Made by a program: the position numbers and the translations under genes
Assembly: GCA_025353305.1 (NCBI GenBank)
Contig: JANXQX010000052.1
Location: 1 to 11,186, forward strand
Direction: 5' to 3'
Length of the DNA: 11,186 nucleotides
Source: Holophagaceae bacterium
GTDB lineage: Bacteria > Acidobacteriota > Holophagae > Holophagales > Holophagaceae
The notes under the pieces: generated by a model
What the model was told of the DNA's origin: nothing
Database searches by the model: none
The model's input: the letters and a program-made list of their open reading frames with translations, nothing else
Part shown: positions 1 through 11,186 of the stretch, piece after piece
How positions within the stretch are numbered: position 1 is the stretch's first letter
Layout of the letters: every line of letters starts with the position of its first letter

Positions 1-507
1 GTTCCCGTCTATCGCACGCTCTCGCGTGCTCCCGCGCGCCTTCGGCTTGCGGAGACAGGATCCCTTGTACCACTGAAAATACCCTCGGCAGAAGCTCCGG
101 GCGTCTTCGATGGAACCGAAGCGCTCCGGGAATCCGGGGCTATATTTCAGCGTCTTGAACTGCGCTTCCGAGTAGGGGTTATCGTCCGAAACATGAGGCC
201 GACTATGGCTCTTCGTGACTTTCAGGTCGATGAGGAGGGTTCCCACTGTCTTGGAAACCATGGCTGGGCCTCGGTCCGAATGCAGGGTTAATTCCCAGTC
301 GCGGATGCCGTGCTGAAGGAAGGTCTGCCGGTGGAATTCCTTGGCGAGAGCCTCGTCCTCCCGCCTCAGTAATGCCGAGAGCTGCCCTGGAATTGTGCTG
401 GCATCTGCCTCCGCAAGAATCCGTAGCTTGTAGGCCACGCTGAAACGCCGCCGCGCCGAGTGAGTTAAATCAACCTCCCCATTGCCCAAATTGATGACCT
501 TGCCCAT
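1..507 (-). pseudogene. IS3-family transposase remnant: OrfA start fused in frame to the back of the DDE integrase
   Basis: Reading leftward from ATG 507-505, behind a purine-rich GGAAGGAAAAGG stretch, the frame stays open to base 1 (169 codons). Residues 1 to about 48 match the start of IS3-type OrfA (RRRFSVAYKLRILAEADA, then GQLSALLRRE). The text then jumps without a frameshift into the integrase catalytic domain: LTLHSDRGPAMVSK, KSHSRPHVSDDNPYSEAQF and RFGSIEDARSFC. The second catalytic Asp (HSDRG) and the Glu (SEAQF) are present. The rest of OrfA and the first part of OrfB, including the first catalytic Asp, are missing. After FQWYK, near base 62, the sequence stops resembling the family, so a second junction is likely there. 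Transposase function is lost. The family call is firm from these motifs; the exact IS group is not known. Confidence 0.85.
14..52. repeat. Two adjacent hairpins beside the IS breakpoint
   Basis: Bases 14-19 (GCACGC) and 24-29 (GCGTGC) form a perfect 6-bp stem with a TCTC loop. Bases 32-40 and 44-52 form a second stem of 9 pairs (one mismatch, one G-T pair) around the loop TTC. Neither is followed by a T-run on the strand shown. They lie just outside the recognisable IS sequence. They could be a palindromic REP-like unit or part of the neighbouring GC-rich sequence; the function is unknown. Confidence 0.35.
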
Positions 508-580
508 TCCTTTTCCTTCCCTGCCCCAACGAGTGACAACTCTTAAGTTTCGTCTGTCTCAACATTGTTGGCACGGGGGG
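62..580 (-). mobile_element. Insertion sequence remnant, copy 1 (IS3 family)
   Basis: This is the IS body carrying the broken transposase. Its upstream end is placed at about 580 because the second copy shares sequence exactly as far as the G-run at 575-580 and diverges at the next base. The other end is lost near 62, where the integrase similarity stops before its usual C-terminus. An internal deletion has removed the middle of the element at about position 363. I could not identify terminal inverted repeats, because only one end is preserved, nor a target-site duplication. Confidence 0.7.
382..580 (-). repeat. 199-bp direct repeat, copy A
   Basis: This segment recurs in the same orientation at 6008-6206. 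I count four differences, at 391, 412, 424 and 463, so the copies are about 98% identical, and 464-580 is identical. It covers the IS upstream end, the region before the transposase start and the first 42 codons of OrfA. The two copies flank the Hsp70-protease gene. Confidence 0.95.
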
Positions 581-969
581 GAGGCAATATGCAGCCTCGC
601 CGTTGCGAACCAGTTCGATGGTGTGCTCTGTAAGACCCGTGACCAGTTGGAGGTAGGCCGATTCCTGTGCAGCATTGATGGTTTGGGTGGTTGGGGGCGT
701 CCTTATGGGCCAGATGGCCATCAGGGGCAGGGAGTGATGGTAGCGTGATCGTCATCTCGTCGGAGGATAGCCATCCCCTCGCCCGGGGTAGGTCACCCAT
801 TGTCCAATTGCCTGGATTAGGGTCACAAGCATCAAGGTTTTGACCGAGATGGGCCTTGAGAGTGCCTAATAATGGATCACCTCAGCGTTTTTGTACCAGA
901 CCAACCCCTACGGACTCCTTCTCCAAGCGCTGAACATGTCTTCAACTGTTTTCCTACTTCTGGTTGTCC
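581..969. other. Intergenic stretch with no supported gene
   Basis: I see no convincing gene, RNA or regulatory site in these 389 bases. A minus-strand reading that starts at ATG 721-719 has a protein-like start (AYLQLVTGLTEHTIELVRNG). It runs out of the unique DNA into the IS repeat at 580, where it translates IS sequence out of frame. It could be the front of a gene cut by the IS, but I recognise no family and its start lacks a good ribosome-binding site. Confidence 0.4.
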
Positions 970-1218
970 ATGCTGCGTCTCGAAGACATCAAGCCCGGTC
1001 AGGCCCTTCAGGGACTAGAGCCAAGCCTCGTGGTCTCTGTCGTGGCGGTGGTGCCGTTATCGCCGGACTCAATCCAGGTAACGGGGCCGCAGACCACATC
1101 AAGCGGGGGGTATCGGAGAATGCCAAAGCGCTTGGATTTAAGCAAGCTGACTGGGAGTAGGACGGTTGCTCTAGACCTGAAGATGACGTCAATTCTCACC
1201 CTTGAACATGCTTGGTGA
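970..1218 (+). pseudogene. Fragment resembling the N-terminus of an SNF2/DUF3883-type helicase
   Basis: From ATG 970 the frame reads MLRLEDIKPGQALQGLEP, followed by VVSVVAVVPLSPDSIQVT. From memory, this matches the opening of large SNF2-type helicases, including those of DISARM-like defence loci, which start with an LEDLKPG..V.GL pattern and a short V-rich beta segment. The match fades after about residue 37. The frame stops at 1216-1218 after 82 codons, far short of the roughly 1000 or more residues of such helicases, and no helicase motifs follow. It lies directly upstream of the Hsp70-protease start. I read it as the debris of a gene replaced by the present one. Alternatives are a short functional leader peptide or a chance resemblance. 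Confidence 0.4.
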
Positions 1219-1260
1219 GGTCTCAATCAAAGAAATGGAAGGCATTCCAAGGGGTTGAGC
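1219..1260 (+). promoter_or_regulatory. Leader and ribosome-binding site of the Hsp70-protease gene
   Basis: AAGGGG at 1249-1254 lies six bases before ATG 1261, which is a good Shine-Dalgarno distance. The in-frame TTG at 1255 touches this AAGGGG and is too close to be a likely start, so the site decides the start in favour of ATG 1261. I see no convincing -10/-35 promoter in the short leader. Confidence 0.6.
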
Positions 1261-4200
1261 ATGGCGCGAATTGGACTCTTCGAATGGGTAGCTGACCTGT
1301 TTGCCAAGATGGGCGGAACCCAAGCGCAGTTCAGCCGTGCTAATAAAGTGATTCGAACCCGTCTTTCCGAAAGTCATGCTAGTCCAGAGCTTCGGCAGGA
1401 ACTGTTCAAAAGGTATGAAGAGGCCTTAGGGCTGGCACCTAGGATCTCAAATCTGGCCGTCATAGATACAGTTCGGGACCTAGACCACCAATTTCAGGGC
1501 ATCAGGCCGAGTCAACCCGCTGCCTTCCAGGAAGCCTTGCAGTCGCTTGGGGACATCTCGGGGTTGTCCAAGGAGGGGCTGGAGGTAGCCAGAAAGCTTG
1601 CCTCTCGCATCGGTAACCGGGAGCTTCTCGGGAAAGCCCTGCAAGGCATTGCCCTCCTTCAAACACAGGCGGGGGAACCGGAGCGGCTTCTGACTACGCT
1701 GCTTGCGCAGAGCAAGGAGCAAACGCTATCCAGGGCTGGTCTCGAGAGGGTTCTTCAATTGTTCCTGGAACGCGCCAGATTCGAACCAGAAGCAGCTTGG
1801 AAGCGATTCCTTGGGGACCTTCCCTCGGCCTTGCTGCCTAGGGTTCATCAGGCCTACCTCTTGGTGGATCGGGTTCCGGAGGCGATCGATCTTGCGGAAT
1901 CGGCAGGAGACCTTCCATTCGCTGTGCCTTTGCTTCTCCAGCAGCCAGGTGAAGAAAACGCAGTCAGGGCGCTGAGGCTGGCTGAAAAATGGGGAGATGT
2001 CGAATCGGTGAAGGCCGCAAGCCATAAGGTCGGGCTCATGTTGGCGATGCGCGGTGATCACTCAATTGCACTAAGCCATTTCAAGAAGGCCGAGCAATGG
2101 GATTTGGCGGCTGATTCCCTTTGCGCCCTGGGCGAATTCGGAGAAGGCATCAGGATCAAGACAGCCATCACTTCTGAGTGGCTGGCCCAGACCCACAAAC
2201 TCTCAGACGCTAAGGTGCAATATCACCTAGCCTCCAAGGAGTTCAAAGAAGCTGTTGCCATACTCTTCCAGATCCGAAGTGCCTGTTCAGTTCGTGGAGA
2301 CTCTCCGCTGCTTAGGGATGAGGCCGGGCGTGTGGAGCGGTTACTCGCGGACTTGGTTCGGACCGTCCGCGGAGCCTTTGAAGAAGAAATCCGGTCTACC
2401 AGCGCCTCGTTAGGTGCCGAAGTATTCAGGCGTTGGAGCCTCTTTGAGGAAGCTGCCGGGAATTTCTTGGAAGCTGCCTTACACGCCGAATCAGCGCAGG
2501 ATTTCTTCTCTGCATCATTGTTGTTCGAGAAGGCTGGAGCAATTGGTCAGGCTATTCGAGCCCTCGACAAGAGCGGAAATGCTGGCGATCTCCGCATGCG
2601 TGCCGGGCTGCTCGAACAGGGTGGGGATTCCTATACGGCAGGGATTCTCTACGAGCGCATTGGAGATCTTGGCAAGGCTGTCGACATGTTCGAGGCAGCC
2701 AGTGAGTTCAGGCGGGCAGCGCAGGTCCGGCGGGCTCAGGTTGGCGAAAAGCAGGCGGTCTTTGACGAGAAGCTCTTGAACCTTCTCATCAAGGCGGGTC
2801 GAGTTGAATCCCTTGCCGATCTGGCTTTGGTCCAATTGCACGAGCCAGGATGCCAGGGGGCTGAGCGACTCAAACTGGCAGATCGACTGCGGCACCTACA
2901 TTCGTGCGGGTACTTGGGTGCCAAATGGGAACAGATCATTGCAGAAGAAGGACCATCAACCGAGGATGCCTGTCGTGATAATTTCTTCGCAGGGGTTGAG
3001 GCGTGGTTCAAGACCGCCACTCAGGAGGTTCAGGAAATCTACCTGGATGCTTACGGAATGGACCTTGGCACCAGCAACAGCACGGTTGCCCTATTCAACC
3101 GAAAGTCAAAGACCGCCGAAGTTGCGGAGATAGCTGGCAGGGCTTCCTTCCCGTCTACTTTCGCTATTGACGACACCGGTCGCGAAATCATCGGCGTTTC
3201 GACCGCAAGTCTGCTCGCACGCCCGTTAAAGGCCCTGATAAGGAGGGCAAAACGATTCATGGGCTCTGAAAGGTCGTTCCGGGCTGATGGGACCATCATG
3301 CGCCCAGAAGAAATCTCTGGAAGGTTGATCAGGTATGGGCAGCAGGTAGGAAAGGAGTTCCTTCTTGGTAAGGTTGTGGCGAGGGTCGAATCACTTGCCT
3401 TCAAGGCTCTCGGAACCCCGGCCAAGTCATCCTGGATTACAGATTTCCTCAAGGACCATCCGCAGGAGATTGCGCTCAACCGAGCCGTCCTAACCGTTCC
3501 GGCCTATTTCAATGACTCGCAGAAGCAGGCCACACGAATCGCAGCCGAATTCGCAGGCATCAAGGTGCTACGCCTCATACACGAGCCCACAGCAGCTTGC
3601 TTGGCCCAGTGCGCATCAAGGCAAGAACCTGGCAATGTTTTGGTGGTTGATCTCGGTGCCGGGACTCTGGACCTGTCCTTGATTCAGGTGGATGAAACGG
3701 GTGTCTACGAAGTCTCGGAGATCGAAGGTGACAACAGTCTAGGTGGGGCGGATGTTGACGATCTTCTGCTCAAGCACTTCAATCAGGTTCTCTTGGAGAG
3801 GGTCGCAAAGGGTGTACTGGAAGAAAGCCAAAGGCAGCTACGCCTCAAGGACGCGTGCGAGCGCCTAAAAATCGAGCTATCGACCAATGAATCATGGTCG
3901 ATTCCACTTCTTGCCTTCAGTGGTCAGGACTCGATTGACCTTTCACTCAGTCGCAAGGATCTTGAAGCAATCGCATCTCCTTGGCTCGATCGGTTCAAAG
4001 CCGTCTGTAAGAAGATTAAGGGCAAACCCGATCGCATCCTTCTGGTAGGCGGGGCAGGCCAGATGCCCGCGATACGATCTTGCGTCAGGGAGATCTTTGG
4101 CATCAACCCCACGCCAGGCGTGGACCCGGTTGCGTCCGTAGCCAGAGGAGCCGCGATTCAAGCAGGAATTCTCTGTCTCGAAATGAAGGGAATCCTTTTG

Positions 4201-5922
4201 CTCGACGTGGTCCCCTTCAGCCTTGGTACGGATGTAAAGAACCCGGTCACCGGCGAAATTGAGATTGGTTGCCTGATCCCGAAGCACTCCACCTATCCAA
4301 CCGCCCGATCTGAGATTTATTCAACGGTGATAGACAATCAAACCTCGGTTCCGATCGGTGTCTTCCAGGGAGAGAGCAAGAATCCCAAGGAAAACTTCAA
4401 GGTTGGACATTTTGACCTGGATGGAATTCCACCCGCCCCGAAGCAGGTGCCACAAATTGAAGTGACTTTCTCGATCGATGCAGACTGTTGTTTGGAGGTG
4501 ACAGCCAAGGACAAGGGAACAGGGAAGACGCAGTCCATCACCATTCGGGATTCCCATCTGCTTTCCCCGGCCATGAAGACTGATACCCAGAAAAAATTCA
4601 ACGAGGAGGAGCGCGGGCAGGCGTCCATCTCCAAGCTGCAAACGATCCACGATGGGATTCTTGACTGGCATCGACGGTCAGATGTGGAAGATGTCAGGAC
4701 TCTCGCTGAACGATTCGGCAGGTTGTTGGCCCACTATGAGGTAAACGCGAAGAGATTTGCGCCCAAGCCGTCCGACGACCAGACCCTGATGGCAATCTTT
4801 AGAGAGCGCTTGAATCATGAAGGTGAAGCCAGGTATCTGGTCGAGCAGTGGGATGCGGTAACTGCTGATGGCAGGGGCTGGATCGAAAGGCGGAAAAAGG
4901 CTCTTGGCGAGACGCCACGGGATGCAAAGGTCCTGGAACCGCTATTGGCTGAAGGTAAGGAAATCCTCCGCCGAACGGAGTCTGCTTACCAACCGCTCTC
5001 TGAGTGTCGACAGCGCTATGGACGATGGCTTGCCGTGTTGCAGGACTTGCCCCTGAATCCGACAGGTGACCCCGATGAGTTGGCCAGACACTTTCTGGTG
5101 GTGGGTCAGGCTGACCAGGCCCTTTCCTTCTTCAAACGCTTGCCTGCTCCGCTGAAGCCAACTCAAGTTGACCTGGGCCTGATGATCTTGGCGGCTCTAC
5201 GCAGGAAGGATGAGTACAACGGGCTCCTCGGTGATCACTTGGAGGCCTTGAATGTCCACGTTCCCAACTTTTCAGGACTGAACCACACCGTTCGTCAACT
5301 GAGGCCATCTGTGGTCTGGGTCCAAGTCATCGATGGCAGTGGCAGTGGCTTCGCAATTGGTCCCAACCTAATTGCCACGAACCGCCATGTGGTGGTGGAC
5401 AAGGATGGAAAGCCTCATGACCCAAGCCACTTAAGGGTGCTCACCACGACCGGGCCACTCCCTGTTGTTTCAGTGCATTTGTCAATGCATGCACAGGATG
5501 ATGTGGCCATTCTCCGGCTCGCCGATGGGATTTCGCTTGCTCCGCTTCGACTGGGTTTCTCGGAGCTTGTGGAAGTTGGCGAGCGGGTCATTGCCCTTGG
5601 CTTTCCCGCCCCTGAGGATGGGGGCTTCGAAGAAAATCTGCATCTTGGATCGGGACTGGTCAATCGAATCCGCGCATTGGAGGCCCACTGCTCTGAACGA
5701 GTCTTCGAATTGAGCCTGGATTTGAAAGGCGGTATCAGTGGGGCCCCCGTCATCAATGAACAAGGCGAAGTCATCGGGTTGGCAACCTTTTCGCGGTATC
5801 GCCCTGAAGGGGTCCTCGACAATGGCCAGGTAACGGTTGGAAAGGCCTCCTACGCCGTCCCCGTGAATCTACTTCGGAAGCTAGTGGATGGACTCCAGTA
5901 CGGAACGTGTCAACGACTTTGA
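1261..5922 (+). CDS. TPR-like / Hsp70 / trypsin-like protease fusion protein (1553 aa)
   Basis: Residues 1 to about 590 are helical, with TPR-like repeats (clearest about 245-300 and 390-500) and no signal peptide or membrane segment, so the protein is cytoplasmic. Residues 597-1103 form an Hsp70: phosphate-1 loop GMDLGTSNSTVAL (599-611, D601), K664 in AKRFMG, E775 in HEPTAA, phosphate-2 loop DLGAGTLD (797-804, T802), adenosine loop ILLVGGAGQMP (926-936), the LLLD linker (979-982) and a beta substrate-binding domain. Residues 1104-1340 are helical, with a TPR-like unit near 1272-1296. Residues 1341-1540 are an HtrA/trypsin-fold protease with a visible triad: H1376 (TNRHVV), D1414 (DDVAIL) and S1493 (GGISGAPV). 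In Hsp70 proteins ATP binding controls grip on substrate; here that cycle may present captured proteins to the fused protease. No DnaJ or GrpE partner is in the window. Hsp70 and protease assignments are firm; the role is inferred. Confidence 0.93.
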   Translation: MARIGLFEWVADLFAKMGGTQAQFSRANKVIRTRLSESHASPELRQELFKRYEEALGLAPRISNLAVIDTVRDLDHQFQGIRPSQPAAFQEALQSLGDISGLSKEGLEVARKLASRIGNRELLGKALQGIALLQTQAGEPERLLTTLLAQSKEQTLSRAGLERVLQLFLERARFEPEAAWKRFLGDLPSALLPRVHQAYLLVDRVPEAIDLAESAGDLPFAVPLLLQQPGEENAVRALRLAEKWGDVESVKAASHKVGLMLAMRGDHSIALSHFKKAEQWDLAADSLCALGEFGEGIRIKTAITSEWLAQTHKLSDAKVQYHLASKEFKEAVAILFQIRSACSVRGDSPLLRDEAGRVERLLADLVRTVRGAFEEEIRSTSASLGAEVFRRWSLFEEAAGNFLEAALHAESAQDFFSASLLFEKAGAIGQAIRALDKSGNAGDLRMRAGLLEQGGDSYTAGILYERIGDLGKAVDMFEAASEFRRAAQVRRAQVGEKQAVFDEKLLNLLIKAGRVESLADLALVQLHEPGCQGAERLKLADRLRHLHSCGYLGAKWEQIIAEEGPSTEDACRDNFFAGVEAWFKTATQEVQEIYLDAYGMDLGTSNSTVALFNRKSKTAEVAEIAGRASFPSTFAIDDTGREIIGVSTASLLARPLKALIRRAKRFMGSERSFRADGTIMRPEEISGRLIRYGQQVGKEFLLGKVVARVESLAFKALGTPAKSSWITDFLKDHPQEIALNRAVLTVPAYFNDSQKQATRIAAEFAGIKVLRLIHEPTAACLAQCASRQEPGNVLVVDLGAGTLDLSLIQVDETGVYEVSEIEGDNSLGGADVDDLLLKHFNQVLLERVAKGVLEESQRQLRLKDACERLKIELSTNESWSIPLLAFSGQDSIDLSLSRKDLEAIASPWLDRFKAVCKKIKGKPDRILLVGGAGQMPAIRSCVREIFGINPTPGVDPVASVARGAAIQAGILCLEMKGILLLDVVPFSLGTDVKNPVTGEIEIGCLIPKHSTYPTARSEIYSTVIDNQTSVPIGVFQGESKNPKENFKVGHFDLDGIPPAPKQVPQIEVTFSIDADCCLEVTAKDKGTGKTQSITIRDSHLLSPAMKTDTQKKFNEEERGQASISKLQTIHDGILDWHRRSDVEDVRTLAERFGRLLAHYEVNAKRFAPKPSDDQTLMAIFRERLNHEGEARYLVEQWDAVTADGRGWIERRKKALGETPRDAKVLEPLLAEGKEILRRTESAYQPLSECRQRYGRWLAVLQDLPLNPTGDPDELARHFLVVGQADQALSFFKRLPAPLKPTQVDLGLMILAALRRKDEYNGLLGDHLEALNVHVPNFSGLNHTVRQLRPSVVWVQVIDGSGSGFAIGPNLIATNRHVVVDKDGKPHDPSHLRVLTTTGPLPVVSVHLSMHAQDDVAILRLADGISLAPLRLGFSELVEVGERVIALGFPAPEDGGFEENLHLGSGLVNRIRALEAHCSERVFELSLDLKGGISGAPVINEQGEVIGLATFSRYRPEGVLDNGQVTVGKASYAVPVNLLRKLVDGLQYGTCQRL

Positions 5923-6007
5923 GACAGAAAGCGGCCTGAGTTAAGACTCCGACCCATCCTCCTGCGGACCGAGCTCGGGCGCGGATTTCCTATGGAAAGC
6001 TGGGGCC
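5923..6007. other. Short spacer after the Hsp70-protease stop
   Basis: This holds the 3' side of the gene and the junction with IS copy 2. TTTCC at 5986-5990 and GGAAA at 5994-5998 form a small inverted repeat, but no T-run follows, so I do not call a terminator. Confidence 0.4.
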
Positions 6008-6133
6008 CTGCCCTGGGATTGTGCTGGCATCTGCCTCAGCAAGAATCCGCAGCTTGTAGGCCACGCTGAAACGCCGCCGCGCCGAGTGGGTTAAATCAAC
6101 CTCCCCATTGCCCAAATTGATGACCTTGCCCAT
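5990..6133 (-). pseudogene. IS3-family OrfA remnant, second copy
   Basis: ATG 6133-6131 opens the same OrfA reading as in the first copy, identical through the RRRFSVAYKLRILAEADA stretch and on to PGQ. At base 6007 the IS sequence ends. The frame runs on through five unrelated codons to a TAG at 5992-5990, giving 47 residues. Only the start of OrfA is left, so the product cannot be active. The breakpoint differs from the internal deletion in copy 1, so the two copies decayed independently or were cut by different events. Confidence 0.8.
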
Positions 6134-6206
6134 TCCTTTTCCTTCCCTGCCCCAACGAGTGACAACTCTTAAGTTTCGTCTGTCTCAACATTGTTGGCAC
6201 GGGGGG
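6008..6206 (-). mobile_element. Insertion sequence remnant, copy 2; direct repeat copy B
   Basis: This matches 382-580 in the same orientation with four differences in 199 bases. It ends at the same G-run (6201-6206), after which the flanking DNA differs (TATTAG here, GAGGC in copy 1). This shared outer boundary suggests the true end of the IS. It separates the convergent Hsp70-protease gene from the NTPase operon. No transposase gene long enough to be active is present. Confidence 0.85.
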
Positions 6207-6456
6207 TATTAGCCTCATGCTATGGACCAAGCGCAAAGAGCTCACTTATGAGGAAGCCATCTTTGCTTGGATGACGCCTTGGATATGACACAAGCTGTCG
6301 CTTCCGTATGGCTACAGCGGAAGTCTTTGCTGGAGATGGGCCCTGAGACTCTAATCACTTGAACGGATTTGTTGGGTTTTCCTGCCTATAGGGCGGCACA
6401 GGATGACGTTCCCCCCAAATGAGTAGCCCAGTCTTTGTGTGTACCCCAAGAGATTC
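6207..6456. other. Intergenic stretch downstream of the minus-strand operon
   Basis: I see no supported gene here. A plus-strand reading from ATG 6221 (LWTKRKELTYEEAIFAWMT) looks protein-like but stops after 23 codons. It may be a gene scrap beside the IS end. No clear hairpin-plus-T-run terminator is visible for the operon that ends at 6457. Confidence 0.4.
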
Positions 6457-8085
6457 TTAAGATTCAGATGGCGGCAAGGCGCTGTACCACGCCATGGTTC
6501 TTCTCTTTATTTCCTCGGTTTCCATCGATGGGTATTGCTTCCAGAGATCCTGGGCGTAGCCTTTGGCCTTCCCCACTGCCTTACCGGTTAGTCCTGGGAA
6601 GTCCAACCCACTGAGAGGGAACTTTCGGCTCTCCGCCACGACGATTTGAATGGCCACCTGGGTGGCCGCTTCCATGGGGGTGCAGGCCGTAGGATTGCTT
6701 TGGCTGAGCCTGACTCGGGCGGTACTCAGGTGCTTATTGAAAAATGCCGCCGTTTCCAAGGTTGGATCAGTGTTGGCAATCGCCACCCGAAAAGCCTCAC
6801 GCCAATCATCGTCTGAGAGGAGTCCGCGTTGCTTGTCCAGCATTTCACGGTGGACCAGGGACTCCAAAGACTGTTCTTGGAAGGCCTCTAAGACTTCCCA
6901 CAAACGGTGAATGGCTCCATCCCATTCTTCGACTAGTGCGGTAGTAAGCAGACGCCAAGAAGCTTTACTGGGCCGCACTTTACCGCAATGTTTGGCGTAC
7001 CACGTCTCCGCATCCATAAACTTCTCTTTGTTATCCTTTCCATCCCTCAGGATGCCGTGCTGGTGGATGGTACGCAGACGATAAAGAGTTTTATAAAAGG
7101 GATGCGAGGCGATGGATCCCGTCACGTCATTGTCCAATAGATCCAATTTTTGGAGAAATTTATTATCTTCAGGATCTATGCCATCGGATCCAAGGCGGCA
7201 AGACATCCAGGTGATAAGGTTGATAAACCAACTCCGCTCGCAATTTGTAAGGAAAGGCGAAGGAAGATCCACGATCGGTTTAAGTAAAGGGCGATCAGCC
7301 CAAGCCTGGAACATCTGATCGATATCGAGAAGGAGTTCAAGGCACTTGGCAAATTTGGCCTCTAATTCGATTTTGGAGTCCGGGATGACCGGGACGATTG
7401 ACTCACGCCTGCCAAGTAGTGGAACCAAGTCTAAGGACGGTTCATTACCTACCATTCCCGCGGTCCGATCGATCCACGCCACCAACTCTGTCAAGCTGGT
7501 CGGAATTGCCGCTTCTATTGTCCGTGCAAAGGAACCTTGTTCAGTAGTTGAGTAACTGCTGAAGGTTTGCTGGACTAAATGAATAATTAGGTTACGGCGC
7601 AAATCCAAGGGGACCTTGGGGAAAGGTTGGATTTGCAAGCCCATCACGCTAGGCACAGTCGTTAATTGCTCGTATTCAAATTGGAGCAGCGGAGCGAGAC
7701 AGACTGTGCTGGTTGCCCTTAGTGTGGTGAGTATAAAGTCGTTTCCACTTCGAATTAGCGCAGCCGACAGTAGGCCTGCATTCTCTAGAATGAGAATCTC
7801 ACTTGCCGTCTGCTTTGATAGTTCACCCGGGAGTTCTCCCACTCCAAATAACAATTCCCAGCAATGGTATGGGTCATCGTCCTCCAAACGGACCATCCTA
7901 TAGGGCAGGCTATCCTGTTCGAGCCAATTGGCACAGCAAGTAGCAAGGTAGGCACCCTCTACATTGGCATCCACGCCTAAGGCGCAGAACCCGAATGGAG
8001 CGGTCCGAACCATAGCCAGGACCTGGGGGCGAAATTCCTTATCTAGCCAACTCCGTGAAAATCGTGAAAGTACCGGATTGTCCAT
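6457..8085 (-). CDS. Hypothetical protein, second gene of the NTPase operon (542 aa); possible degenerate NTPase-like front
   Basis: I do not recognise this family. ATG 8085-8083 is chosen because it lies ten bases after the upstream stop and carries AGGG at 8093-8090; an earlier start at 8202 would overlap the upstream gene by over 100 bases and lacks such a site. The first 125 residues alternate strands and helices in an NTPase-like order: ALGVDANVEGAYLA (35-48) where a P-loop would sit but with no GK[ST], a strand ILILENAG (97-104) like Walker B, and FILTTLR (117-123) like a sensor strand ending in Arg. This may be an inactivated STAND-type fold. A helical middle holds YRLRTIHQHG (335-344), which fits an RX4H pattern as in HEPN RNases but without the usual polar residue after Arg. 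The C-terminus (about 490-535) is basic and helical. No signal or membrane segment is seen. Tight spacing implies it works with the upstream NTPase. Confidence 0.85.
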   Translation of the reverse strand: MDNPVLSRFSRSWLDKEFRPQVLAMVRTAPFGFCALGVDANVEGAYLATCCANWLEQDSLPYRMVRLEDDDPYHCWELLFGVGELPGELSKQTASEILILENAGLLSAALIRSGNDFILTTLRATSTVCLAPLLQFEYEQLTTVPSVMGLQIQPFPKVPLDLRRNLIIHLVQQTFSSYSTTEQGSFARTIEAAIPTSLTELVAWIDRTAGMVGNEPSLDLVPLLGRRESIVPVIPDSKIELEAKFAKCLELLLDIDQMFQAWADRPLLKPIVDLPSPFLTNCERSWFINLITWMSCRLGSDGIDPEDNKFLQKLDLLDNDVTGSIASHPFYKTLYRLRTIHQHGILRDGKDNKEKFMDAETWYAKHCGKVRPSKASWRLLTTALVEEWDGAIHRLWEVLEAFQEQSLESLVHREMLDKQRGLLSDDDWREAFRVAIANTDPTLETAAFFNKHLSTARVRLSQSNPTACTPMEAATQVAIQIVVAESRKFPLSGLDFPGLTGKAVGKAKGYAQDLWKQYPSMETEEIKRRTMAWYSALPPSES

Positions 8086-8095
8086 GGTTCCCTGC
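8086..8095 (-). promoter_or_regulatory. Intercistronic ribosome-binding site
   Basis: The ten-base gap GCAGGGAACC between the NTPase stop (TAA 8098-8096) and ATG 8085 carries an AGGG core four bases before the start. The spacing is slightly short, but the arrangement is typical of co-transcribed, translationally coupled genes. Confidence 0.6.
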
Positions 8096-11000
8096 TTAGT
8101 TACGGTGGGGCTGGTAGCGCCGAAGAGGCTCTGCGTAGAACCCCCTGTAATTAAGAGAGACATGGAAGGGACCCAGAACCTGTCCTGGTCGGAGCGCGGC
8201 ATTTAGTCCATGCTCAATTGCATTAAGAGGCAAATGGGAGTTTAGGTCTTCACACCAGACAAGGAGATCCTGGTTCTTGCGTCGCCCTTGGAATTCCGCT
8301 GTGAAGCGAGTGGGCGTGCCTTCGGTGTCGGTAAGAAGAAAGAGGGACCTGGCACGGCGATAACCGCCAACGTTAAGGCGATCTAGGTTCTGGAAGAGGG
8401 TGGTGGCCTCTTGGCTTCGGTTGAGTTGGAGGGCTGCGATGGCAGAGAAGAATATTGCACGTCCTCCGTCCCGCTCTCCTTCACAACGCATAAGCGCGTT
8501 GTTGATTTCCAACCACTGGGTCCATTGTGTAGGAGTAAAGGGTAGGCAGATTCGCTCATGGGGAAAATATTCACTAAAGCCTGTCTCGGTTTCCCACCAC
8601 AACTTGGCGTACAGGACCAAAATCGCACGCTCCGTCAAGAGGACGTTCTGGCACTGGTCCTCAAGATAAGCGCGTGCAGCGACAGGACCATGATTCTTCC
8701 ATTGGTAGCGGGCGCTCAAAGCACGAACGGCGTATGACCCACGGCTCTCAGATTTCGCGAGAATTTCAGAAAACCTGGCGTAGTCACCAAGTTGGTGGGC
8801 GTAGGCTGCTTCCAGACTCTCACGCTTGTCCATCTGTGTCGGAGCTATGTCTAGGTCCATGCTGCGATCAAGCATTTCACCCCAATCCGCCAGAATCACG
8901 GCTTCCTGCTCCGGCGACAGACCTGCCAGGTTGCAACGGGACTGAGATATCCAACAAGCCACATTAGTTGCGTAGTAATTGACGTCCTCGTATTCAAGGG
9001 ATTGGAGCCAGGCAGCCCGGGCCCGGGCAAAATACTGGTTAGCTTGGGTCTGCCAAATGGGCGCTAGCGCTACCTCAGGGATAAGTGCCCTTTCGAGGCA
9101 GACAAGTTTGGTACCTAGGACGCAGGCCCTCTCAGTTGCCATACTAGCCATCATTCGGCGCCCTGCCGAAGAGAGGCGCCCATCCGGGTTTCGTTTGATG
9201 AGATCTTCGGCTTGGCTAATACTCTCTTCTGCCTCAGTCAGTTGGAGGAGCCAGGGTTCCAATATGTCTGGTTGGGAAACGGAACCCATCTTGCCCTGCT
9301 GGGTCTTGACTGATTCTCTGATGACAGTGGACTGGAAAAGAAGGATTCGTGGGTGGAGATTTCTGTTTCGCGCCTTCAAGTCGTAAACAATCTGTGCTAA
9401 GTCCGAAAAATATTTACTAAGTTGAAATTCATGTTCTGCCTGGGGCCCTACGCTCTGAAGAAGCTTGACCACGAAGTCTAGCACAACGCCATCTTCGAAG
9501 AGTTCCGCATCTTCTGCCTTCATGATGACGGACCGAATTAGGTCCAACTGGTCTTTGCTATCAGGAACTTTTTTCGAGATCCAAATCCTAGCCTCTAAAG
9601 TGTGCCGAGAACTGAGCTGGAATTGACCCTCGTTAAGTTGTGTTTCGATGATGATGTCTGCCTTTAGTAACTGTGAATAAATTCGATTGTCGTTGTATAG
9701 AAGACGCAGGGCCAGTGATTGTGGAAGTGGTAGTCCTAACCGGCTCGTCAGCATGACTGTATTCAATAGTTGCCGGAGTGCAGATGCGTTCACACTCGCC
9801 TTTTTTTCTGCTTCGTCCATCTTGCTGCTTAGGTCGGTTTGCACCGTCTCCAAGGCGGCACACAACCGCTGGGCCATTAGGGATTGGCCACTAATCTGAG
9901 TAGCATCTTGGTCGATGGCGATGATGCTGGCCTGGGCCTGCTCGGAACCGACCAGTATTTCCTGAAGGAGTTGATTGGTCAATGGGCCTCGGGCGGGTGG
10001 GAGCAGGTAATATAGAAGTGCAAAAAGATTCGATAGGTCAGCATTTTCGATCTTCTTCGCGAATGCTGGAATATCTGGAATGTATCTCGCAAGGTAGGTG
10101 AGGAGTTGACGTTGCTCAGCCTCATCAAGGTAGATGGGCAGTGTGTGGGCAATCAGGGATCGTTTGCCCTCCCCTCTCTTTCGCTCTTGATTTTGTGGGC
10201 GATGAAAGGTGTATGCAGAACCAATAACGATGACCTTGCGACCGCGGCTCGCAAAATAGTTCGACATGACCAGGTAGTCTTCCGCCTTGGTGGTGGCATC
10301 CACCACAAGGAACGCAGGGGCGCCGGAACCCGCAGCCTCCAACGTTTGGCAGAACGTGTCCACCTGGGTTAATTCTGGAGTCAACAGGCCAGGCGGGGTG
10401 TAAAACACGGCGAAGCCGAGTTTCCGCAATGTCAAGCAGAGCAATTGCAAGGCCACGGTCTTCCCGCTACCGGCCTGGCCGTAAAGTAGAACCGTCTTGT
10501 CTTGGGGACTTGGGCTATCAGCGACTCTAAGAGCCTTTTCGATGAAATCCTTGACAGTGGGACGATGGAAGGCCAACTGATCGATCCATTGCCATGGAAT
10601 CGTGTTGAAGGCATTGCCAAGAAACTCCCTGAATAGGTCGTACTGTTCTTCTAAGCCTGGGGGCAAAGATTGGGTGGAATCCAACGACTGTAGGATTTGA
10701 AACGTCGAGGTTAGGCGGTCTAATTCCAATTTCGATAGGGGAACATCAATTAGGTCGGGGGTGGGTGTTGCTTTGTCGGCGTCAGGCAGGCACCGAAGAA
10801 CCTTGTACAGGCACTCAGCCTCTGCCGAGGAGGCCAGGAGGGTGTTCTCGAATTGCCCGTCCCGCATCAACTGGGCAATACCTTCTTGAAGGGTCAAGGT
10901 CTCAATCTGGATGGTATTTTGTTCGAGCAGGAGGCTGAAATCGTCATCGCCTTGCAAGGCCTGTTTGTCCTCTGGACTCATGCCAAATATAACGACCTGG

Positions 11001-11186
11001 CCAGGTAACATCCCCTGGAGAACCCCTGCAAAATCGCGAGGACGGAGCCAATCTGAACTAGGGGACCACCCTTCAATCAGAAGGACTCCACCAGGAGTGA
11101 GTGTTTCTGGAAGTGTATCCAGGATCCTGAGGGCGGTTCGACGCCTAATCGGCATATCCGCAGGCCCGCTCGGTGGCAATTCCGGT
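8096..11186 (-). CDS. Large P-loop NTPase with helical-repeat C-terminal half (partial, N-terminus beyond the window)
   Basis: The frame is open through the right edge, so the true start probably lies outside; a TTG at 11179 is the first start codon inside and is used for numbering (1027 residues). Residues 30-68 are alpha/beta-like (GGVLLIEGWSP, DWL, QVVIFG) and may be the tail of an N-terminal effector domain. The NTPase has a clear Walker A, GQAGSGKT (234-241), a Walker B-like strand AFLVVDAT (289-296) and a strand KVIVIGSAY (315-323) before a winged-helix-like region (about 350-540). Residues 560-935 are helical and TPR-like. The last 80 residues look like beta strands (FTAEFQGRR, PGQVLG, HVSLNYRGFYAEPL), as in a small barrel. 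Overall this resembles STAND-type signalling ATPases, which pair a nucleotide switch with a repeat sensor. The NTPase call is firm; the STAND label and a defence role are inferred. It is the first gene of a two-gene operon. Confidence 0.85.
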   Translation of the reverse strand, partial: PELPPSGPADMPIRRRTALRILDTLPETLTPGGVLLIEGWSPSSDWLRPRDFAGVLQGMLPGQVVIFGMSPEDKQALQGDDDFSLLLEQNTIQIETLTLQEGIAQLMRDGQFENTLLASSAEAECLYKVLRCLPDADKATPTPDLIDVPLSKLELDRLTSTFQILQSLDSTQSLPPGLEEQYDLFREFLGNAFNTIPWQWIDQLAFHRPTVKDFIEKALRVADSPSPQDKTVLLYGQAGSGKTVALQLLCLTLRKLGFAVFYTPPGLLTPELTQVDTFCQTLEAAGSGAPAFLVVDATTKAEDYLVMSNYFASRGRKVIVIGSAYTFHRPQNQERKRGEGKRSLIAHTLPIYLDEAEQRQLLTYLARYIPDIPAFAKKIENADLSNLFALLYYLLPPARGPLTNQLLQEILVGSEQAQASIIAIDQDATQISGQSLMAQRLCAALETVQTDLSSKMDEAEKKASVNASALRQLLNTVMLTSRLGLPLPQSLALRLLYNDNRIYSQLLKADIIIETQLNEGQFQLSSRHTLEARIWISKKVPDSKDQLDLIRSVIMKAEDAELFEDGVVLDFVVKLLQSVGPQAEHEFQLSKYFSDLAQIVYDLKARNRNLHPRILLFQSTVIRESVKTQQGKMGSVSQPDILEPWLLQLTEAEESISQAEDLIKRNPDGRLSSAGRRMMASMATERACVLGTKLVCLERALIPEVALAPIWQTQANQYFARARAAWLQSLEYEDVNYYATNVACWISQSRCNLAGLSPEQEAVILADWGEMLDRSMDLDIAPTQMDKRESLEAAYAHQLGDYARFSEILAKSESRGSYAVRALSARYQWKNHGPVAARAYLEDQCQNVLLTERAILVLYAKLWWETETGFSEYFPHERICLPFTPTQWTQWLEINNALMRCEGERDGGRAIFFSAIAALQLNRSQEATTLFQNLDRLNVGGYRRARSLFLLTDTEGTPTRFTAEFQGRRKNQDLLVWCEDLNSHLPLNAIEHGLNAALRPGQVLGPFHVSLNYRGFYAEPLRRYQPHRN

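Follow-up and report, generated by a model that had tools for sequence, protein, structure and literature searches.

Known chaperone and protease systems

The choice between refolding and destroying a client, known as chaperone triage, is normally settled between separate machines. ATP-regulated proteolysis is known from AAA+ machines; Clp, Lon and FtsH are AAA+ proteases in which ATP-driven client handling is coupled to proteolysis. According to the accessible portion of the work of Kaur et al. 2020 (PMC7159879), Hsp70 proteins are found in GTPase-centric conflict systems and trypsin-like peptidases elsewhere in accessory systems, and the accessory systems are mostly from multicellular bacteria. 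No description of a single TPR-Hsp70-trypsin chain was found in that portion, and the terms trypsin, TPR, fusion and "fused to" are absent from the main text of a review of bacterial Hsp70s (PMC8215388). The protein described below was originally predicted to have an unfamiliar architecture. In agreement with this, no description of it was found in the titles and abstract openings of the open-licence literature, a mention elsewhere being possible.

Gene and domain organization

The window, i.e., the whole stretch of DNA that was analysed, comprises 11,186 nt of the genome of a Holophagaceae bacterium (GCA_025353305.1, contig JANXQX010000052.1, positions 1–11,186). On its forward strand, it contains an ORF of 1553 open codons counted from the ATG at 1261; an alternative start at an in-frame TTG (1255), two codons before this ATG, is possible. 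The features of the gene are as follows:

1249..1254, + strand, possible ribosome binding site AAGGGG, read ahead of the ATG at 1261
1261..5922, + strand, TPR-like/Hsp70/trypsin fusion gene, 1553 aa (ORF, Pfam and homologue search)
1261..3030, + strand, residues 1–590, all-helical, putative TPR-like superhelix (AlphaFold2, Foldseek, weak TPR_12)
3049..4176, + strand, residues 597–972, Hsp70 nucleotide-binding domain (PF00012; alignment of the catalytic positions with E. coli DnaK)
4195..4209, + strand, residues 979–983, interdomain linker LLLDV (alignment to DnaK and homologue rows)
4210..4569, + strand, residues 984–1103, Hsp70 substrate-binding beta domain (AlphaFold2 model, structure matches)
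4567..5043, + strand, residues 1103–1261, putative lid region, elongated helices (AlphaFold2 secondary structure)
5071..5235, + strand, residues 1271–1325, four short helices ahead of the protease (AlphaFold2)
5293..5895, + strand, residues ~1345–1545, trypsin-like (HtrA-fold) protease (PF13365; profile match to HtrA structures)
5386..5388, + strand, codon of catalytic His1376 (alignment)
5500..5502, + strand, codon of catalytic Asp1414 (alignment)
5737..5739, + strand, codon of catalytic Ser1493 (alignment)

The original prediction had placed a helical region, an Hsp70 and a protease in this order on one polypeptide, and the order was upheld by Pfam, AlphaFold2 and Foldseek. The Pfam family HSP70 matches residues 598–1113 (E-value, 8.9 × 10−104) and Trypsin_2 matches residues 1361–1507 (E-value, 3.5 × 10−22), while TPR_12 matches residues 233–279 weakly (25.8 bits, below the cutoff of 30.1); no AAA+ family is found among the 12 Pfam matches. 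The AlphaFold2 model of residues 1–599, obtained from a 56-row alignment, consists of 34 helices and zero strands (mean pLDDT, 91.7), and solenoids of the TPR, IFT and clathrin types are among the structures that Foldseek matches to it. The proposed TPR-like shape of the N-terminal ~590 residues agrees with the all-helical model and the solenoid matches; because the TM-scores are low (TM by query, 0.10–0.23 among the 50 matches listed), the term TPR-like is fair for shape and unproven for kinship.

In the AlphaFold2 model of residues 590–1553 (mean pLDDT, 88.5), the Hsp70 is followed by long helices in the lid position, then by the four short helices and finally by a protease rich in beta structure. 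The best match to a solved structure is an integrative DnaK model and the second is ATP-bound open DnaK (4b9q), the four chains of which give TM-scores by target of 0.76–0.79. Pfam, this model and the DnaK matches bear out the predicted completeness of the Hsp70, with ATPase, linker and substrate-binding domain. Residues 1104–1326 alone match no Pfam family; judging by the model, residues 1103–1261 may serve as the lid, and the four short helices would resemble TPR hairpins.

The label HtrA-type given to the protease proved correct with regard to fold, as the protease-domain profile matches HtrA structures, and did not extend to two further features that were looked for. A PDZ domain has no Pfam match in the protein, the chain ending soon after the protease, and a hydropathy scan in 19-residue windows gave no candidate for a signal or membrane anchor, since the top value (1.77, at residue 970) lies inside the Hsp70. 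Based on the lack of a PDZ match and of a signal-like hydrophobic stretch, the fusion protein is most likely cytosolic.

Homologues and their distribution

A homologue search over 5.8 billion proteins gave 630 matches among 7994 scored candidates, and 120 of them, including the window's own, were listed. According to precomputed annotation, both HSP70 and Trypsin_2 are present in 103 of the 119 listed matches other than the window's own, and the fusion is therefore neither unique to this genome nor an assembly error, outcomes that the original prediction had named as fatal to it, along with a prior description as a characterised family. The listed members carry source labels such as "Hsp70 family protein", "molecular chaperone" and "molecular chaperone DnaK". 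The fusion was found in cyanobacteria, a Melainabacteria genome, actinobacteria, Omnitrophota, a Christensenellaceae genome and archaea. The closest listed relative, present on five contigs, is 87% identical across 87% of the fusion protein. A large listed set, with taxon names as given by the sources, shares 40–44% identity over nearly full length and includes Nostoc, Fischerella, Laspinema, Leptolyngbya and others, whereas a distant listed set (about 29–34% identity) has Candidatus Argoarchaeum, a Candidatus Hodarchaeota fragment, Amycolatopsis and Lentzea among its members.

When genome contigs were scanned for a single peptide pattern, a protease motif, 80 loci were obtained, a list that represents a lower bound. 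Twelve of these (L001–L012) were taken as family loci, at each of which the fusion gene is one ORF of 1488–1580 aa; the remaining 68 match the protease query at E-values of 8 × 10−13 or weaker. All ten genomes chosen for holding a locus carry the full-length gene as one long ORF. At least one separate Hsp70 is also present in each of the ten, so the fusion adds to DnaK and does not replace it. The Rhodopirellula genome of one of the weaker loci, L064, has a divergent Hsp70 ORF of 869 aa close to another of 536 aa (G594 C630 8472–12111).

With at most two or three candidates scored per genome, the fusion was found in 4 of the 292 sampled genomes (two being seeds) of the phylum of the cyanobacterial Nostoc locus L002, 2 of 148 (one being the seed) of the phylum of Argoarchaeum, 1 of 145 (the seed itself) of the phylum of the Omnitrophota locus L010, 3 of 192 (two being seeds) of the family of L002, and none of 246 around a Coriobacteriales genome, a sample which we take to represent the actinobacterial phylum and which, having no positive genome in it, shows little. 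The cyanobacterial sample, when repeated with a protease profile and up to 10 candidates scored per genome, agreed (4 of 285). The family of L010 has the fusion in 1 of 27 genomes, again the seed, and the genus of the Laspinema locus L005 in five of eight, seed included. The fusion is rare and patchy, yet in the one genus sampled most genomes retain it.

Mobile replicons were considered as carriers and rejected. Among 278 matching records of a plasmid collection, a single one covers at least 80% of the query, and this is a 3.1-Mb linear Embleya replicon; the window has no near match among plasmids. None of the 37 matching phage records covers 80% of the query, and the 12 loci on viral contigs (IMG/VR) are all weak protease matches.

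As for separate-gene versions, which the original prediction had also raised, a free TPR part was not found, and homologues limited to the C-terminal part do exist. When residues 1–599 were searched alone, three proteins were obtained, all with HSP70. The C-terminal 446 residues searched alone gave 40 proteins, i.e., 24 at 39–93% identity and 16 distant proteases. An HSP70 piece is found in 5 of the 24, and 19 have no HSP70 annotation. The start points of the 24 matches are scattered over residues 795–1335 of the window protein, as those of cut genes would be, and 16 of the 19 without HSP70 sit on contigs under 5 kb, the other three being P0133 (7.9 kb), P0140 (4.7 Mb) and P0142 (17 kb). P0133 (1225–1541) complements P0078 (16–1209), and P0128 (935–1541) complements P0163 (88–909), the partners of each pair being on contigs of equal length. 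Such complementary ORFs on two contigs point to a single gene in two ORFs, by sequencing error or truly. P0140 and P0142 may represent either free-standing proteases or genes in decay, and a free-standing C-terminal (protease) part of the fusion is conceivable.

Conservation of the Hsp70 residues

Residues were mapped with E. coli K-12 DnaK as the reference in 109 aligned fusion rows, i.e., the 120 listed proteins minus 11 that match mainly in the Hsp70; DnaK positions D326 and M404 are not alignable in these rows. The catalytic residues of the nucleotide-binding domain (D8, T11, K70, E171, D194 and T199) are each kept in 107 to 109 rows, with gaps and one N at D194 as the exceptions (K70 and D194, 108/109 each). 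P143, E171, T199 and D393 are present in all 109 rows, and the interdomain hydrophobic linker and the substrate-binding beta domain are conserved. Position I438 is I, V or L in 108 rows, and L484 is kept in 107.

Apart from those of E171 and T199, the functional roles of the DnaK residues, including the J-domain contacts, follow PMC8215388 in its accessible portion. Four of the contacts are retained (R167 in 109, Q378 in 93, L391 in 95 and P419 in 108 rows), which suggests that host J-proteins would be able to act on the fusion Hsp70; D477 is D in just 48 rows. Several other positions are altered. N170 is replaced by H in 104 of the 109 rows, A429 of the arch is kept in just 8, and the latch residue R467 is replaced by A in 94 (by K in the window protein). 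The clamp residue D481 is D in 26 rows, as in the window protein, and N in 74, and the latch residues D540 and H544 are not conserved. DnaK has the nucleotide-cleft salt bridges K55–E267 and R56–E264 (PMC8215388, same portion); the window protein has A649 and S650 at K55 and R56, D864 at E264, and E267 retained. By analogy with HscA, as described in the same portion of that review, the changes at N170, the arch, the latch, the clamp and K55/R56 may allow faster nucleotide and client exchange.

Phylogeny

In a quick, midpoint-rooted tree of 57 fusion rows, which has some long branches, three groups were observed. The first comprises cyanobacteria and Obscuribacter, with the window lineage as sister; the second holds the actinobacterial proteins, and the third archaea, Omnitrophota and a Christensenellaceae genome. 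In a tree of the Hsp70 domain, one branch with 100/100 support parts 18 fusion rows from 15 DnaK rows, 12 of the latter having been taken from fusion-bearing genomes, and the sampled fusion proteins thus have one branch of origin. The simplest reading would be a single fusion event of ancient date with later loss and transfer, of which transfer is unproven by the tree.

Proposed function

The reading preferred here, which is given about an even chance, is that the protein belongs to a family, old and rare, of single-chain chaperone-proteases that are probably cytosolic and in which clients are bound and then cut. The TPR-like superhelix would recruit either a partner or a certain client class, and the Hsp70, in its ATP cycle, would bind hydrophobic segments that non-native proteins expose. 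ATP hydrolysis, probably aided by the J-proteins of the cell, would close the Hsp70 on the client, the lid region and the protease would position the HtrA-like serine protease beside the held segment, and clients not released in time would be cut by the tethered protease. In favour of this reading are the many listed homologues with both domains, the nearly invariant ATPase residues, the mostly intact triad, purifying selection in every domain, the DnaK matches of the C-terminal model and the ClpB gene next to the fusion gene in Argoarchaeum; against it count the triads that are lost, the DnaK features that are not retained, and the patchy occurrence and restriction-type neighbours in Omnitrophota, which would suit a defence role as well. 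The self-contained, ATP-controlled recognise-and-cut machine of the original prediction is plausible. The wider reading, that the ATP cycle of an Hsp70, and not an AAA+ ring, selects substrates and presents them to an attached serine protease, in a design that goes back to a single ancient fusion and is now spread over both bacteria and archaea, is proposed more tentatively, at somewhat below even chance.

Protease triad and selection

The H1376/D1414/S1493 triad is intact in 96 of the 109 rows. Four of the other 13 rows end before the triad and nine have lost it (9/105 rows that reach the protease). The losses fall in two places, a Geitlerinema/Sodalinema group and the group that holds the actinobacterial proteins; the latter has intact members too, and triad-intact proteins occur in all three tree groups. 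Given these losses and the replacement of the triad D by N in Embleya, proteolysis is not the function in every member.

Selection was estimated from seven unsaturated, non-duplicate pairs out of nine, leaving out one repeat pair and the saturated L010/L011 pair. The dN/dS values range from 0.05 to 0.31 across domains (TPR, 0.16–0.31; nucleotide-binding domain, 0.10–0.17; substrate-binding domain, 0.05–0.10; lid region, 0.12–0.23; protease, 0.07–0.21), which corresponds to purifying selection. At L007, L083 and L085, the protease catalytic residues are lost and the Hsp70 residues are intact, the protease domain being under purifying selection; several homologues of the actinobacterial group have likewise lost the protease catalytic residues and kept those of the Hsp70.

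These data bear on an alternative that is considered unlikely, though it is the better of those weighed: the protein might be chiefly a chaperone or scaffold, with the protease as a binding or self-processing module whose task is not the cleavage of clients. Such a role would agree with Hsp70 active-site residues that are nearly invariant next to a triad that has degenerated in two or more distinct regions of the tree, and with the protease dN/dS of 0.19–0.20 in two pairs inside the dead-triad Geitlerinema group, where the domain is retained without its triad. It agrees poorly with the presence of all three triad residues in most rows and of intact members in each tree group, as well as with protease dN/dS values of 0.07–0.17 in the triad-intact Laspinema pairs (one intact Nostoc-type pair gives 0.21). 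The chaperone is thus the constant part of the family, and the protease, intact in most members, is retained even when dead.

Genomic surroundings

The fusion gene sits between two copies of a direct repeat:

382..580, no strand assigned, 199-nt direct repeat, left copy, overlapping a transposase remnant
6008..6206, no strand assigned, 199-nt direct repeat, right copy, 4 mismatches

The transposase remnant at the left copy has an integrase core, and the repeats could be old insertion sequence ends that flank the gene. Further downstream (6457–11186, − strand), a gene for a 1029-aa STAND-type NTPase overlaps that of a 581-aa protein, both on the strand opposite to the fusion gene. The NTPase, whose ORF is open at the 5′ end, matches nSTAND_NTPase5 with 32.6 bits (Pfam cutoff, 34), and the 581-aa protein has no match in Pfam, PADLOC, NCBIfam or PHROGs; together they are possibly an undescribed two-gene conflict system. 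As operon partners of the fusion gene, these two were rejected, since none of the ORFs around 13 family loci is related to either.

When 146 ORFs from 12 loci and the window were compared all against all, no recurrent neighbour emerged, only scattered matches, which were judged by eye to be ABC transporter or other transporter, pentapeptide-repeat and phosphoesterase proteins; ten neighbour proteins were run through Pfam. In Candidatus Argoarchaeum (L009, 3503–10627), a ClpB gene lies upstream on the same strand, 69 bases before the fusion gene. At two Omnitrophota loci, the genes upstream of the fusion gene are a type III restriction system plus a further ORF (L010, 1–10636) and a metallophosphatase/SMC-like pair plus a HARE-HTH gene (L011, 1345–10639), respectively. 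The gene order at L007 is common to two further genomes. The fusion gene appears to act alone.

Somewhat less probable than the chaperone or scaffold role is that of a stress- or phage-triggered effector comparable to other cytosolic defence proteases, in which the Hsp70 and TPR-like parts would sense proteotoxic or viral proteins and activate the protease on one particular target in the cell. The protease matches the PADLOC defence-protease models RT-Protease_XI (3.3 × 10−14), LmuA (2.4 × 10−11) and Avs1b (1.1 × 10−5), and the patchy occurrence (4/292, 2/148 and 1/145, with 5/8 in one genus), the restriction-type genes near the two Omnitrophota loci, and the position of the window gene between repeats of a transposase remnant and near a STAND-type NTPase gene point the same way; against it stand the lack of a recurrent partner, the conserved gene order at L007, unlike that of typical islands, and the phage records, none of which covers 80% of the query. 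The notion of an artefact, i.e., a chimeric assembly, a one-off fusion or a chance reading frame, which the flanking repeats might suggest, is rejected as practically negligible, since independent records carry the same layout: the 87%-identical relative lies on five contigs, scores of other listed records share it, and the gene is one long ORF in all ten genomes reached through loci.

Comparison with known systems

The nearest counterpart of the central part is DnaK. The fusion has a complete nucleotide-binding domain, the LLLD linker, a substrate-binding beta domain and helices in the lid position, and it keeps the ATPase residues and most of the J-domain contacts. Unlike DnaK, it scores 366.3 bits against an NCBIfam DnaK equivalog cutoff of 822.55, its Hsp70 is placed on a separate 100/100 branch, N170, the lid latch, the arch and K55/R56 are changed, and the cleft salt bridges are not kept. 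It further adds a 590-aa TPR-like N-terminus and a C-terminal protease. By these sequence comparisons, the fusion protein is a member of the Hsp70 superfamily and not a DnaK.

With HtrA, DegP and MarP, the protease shares the trypsin fold, the H-D-S triad and the profile match to HtrA structures, whereas it is without a PDZ match or signal-like segment and falls far under the HtrA family cutoffs. In the systems of PMC7159879, in its accessible portion, the Hsp70 differs from that of the fusion in being a separate gene beside GrpE or GTPases.

Like the AAA+ proteases, the fusion would link ATP-driven client handling to proteolysis; in contrast to them, it uses an Hsp70 and not an AAA+ ring, and its protease is HtrA-like. 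If both outcomes of triage are indeed housed on one chain, the decision becomes testable in a single molecule, with the ATPase, the client cleft and the protease disabled in turn, and the natural dead-triad members would be ready-made controls. An Hsp70-based design would then join ATP-regulated proteolysis beside the AAA+ machines.
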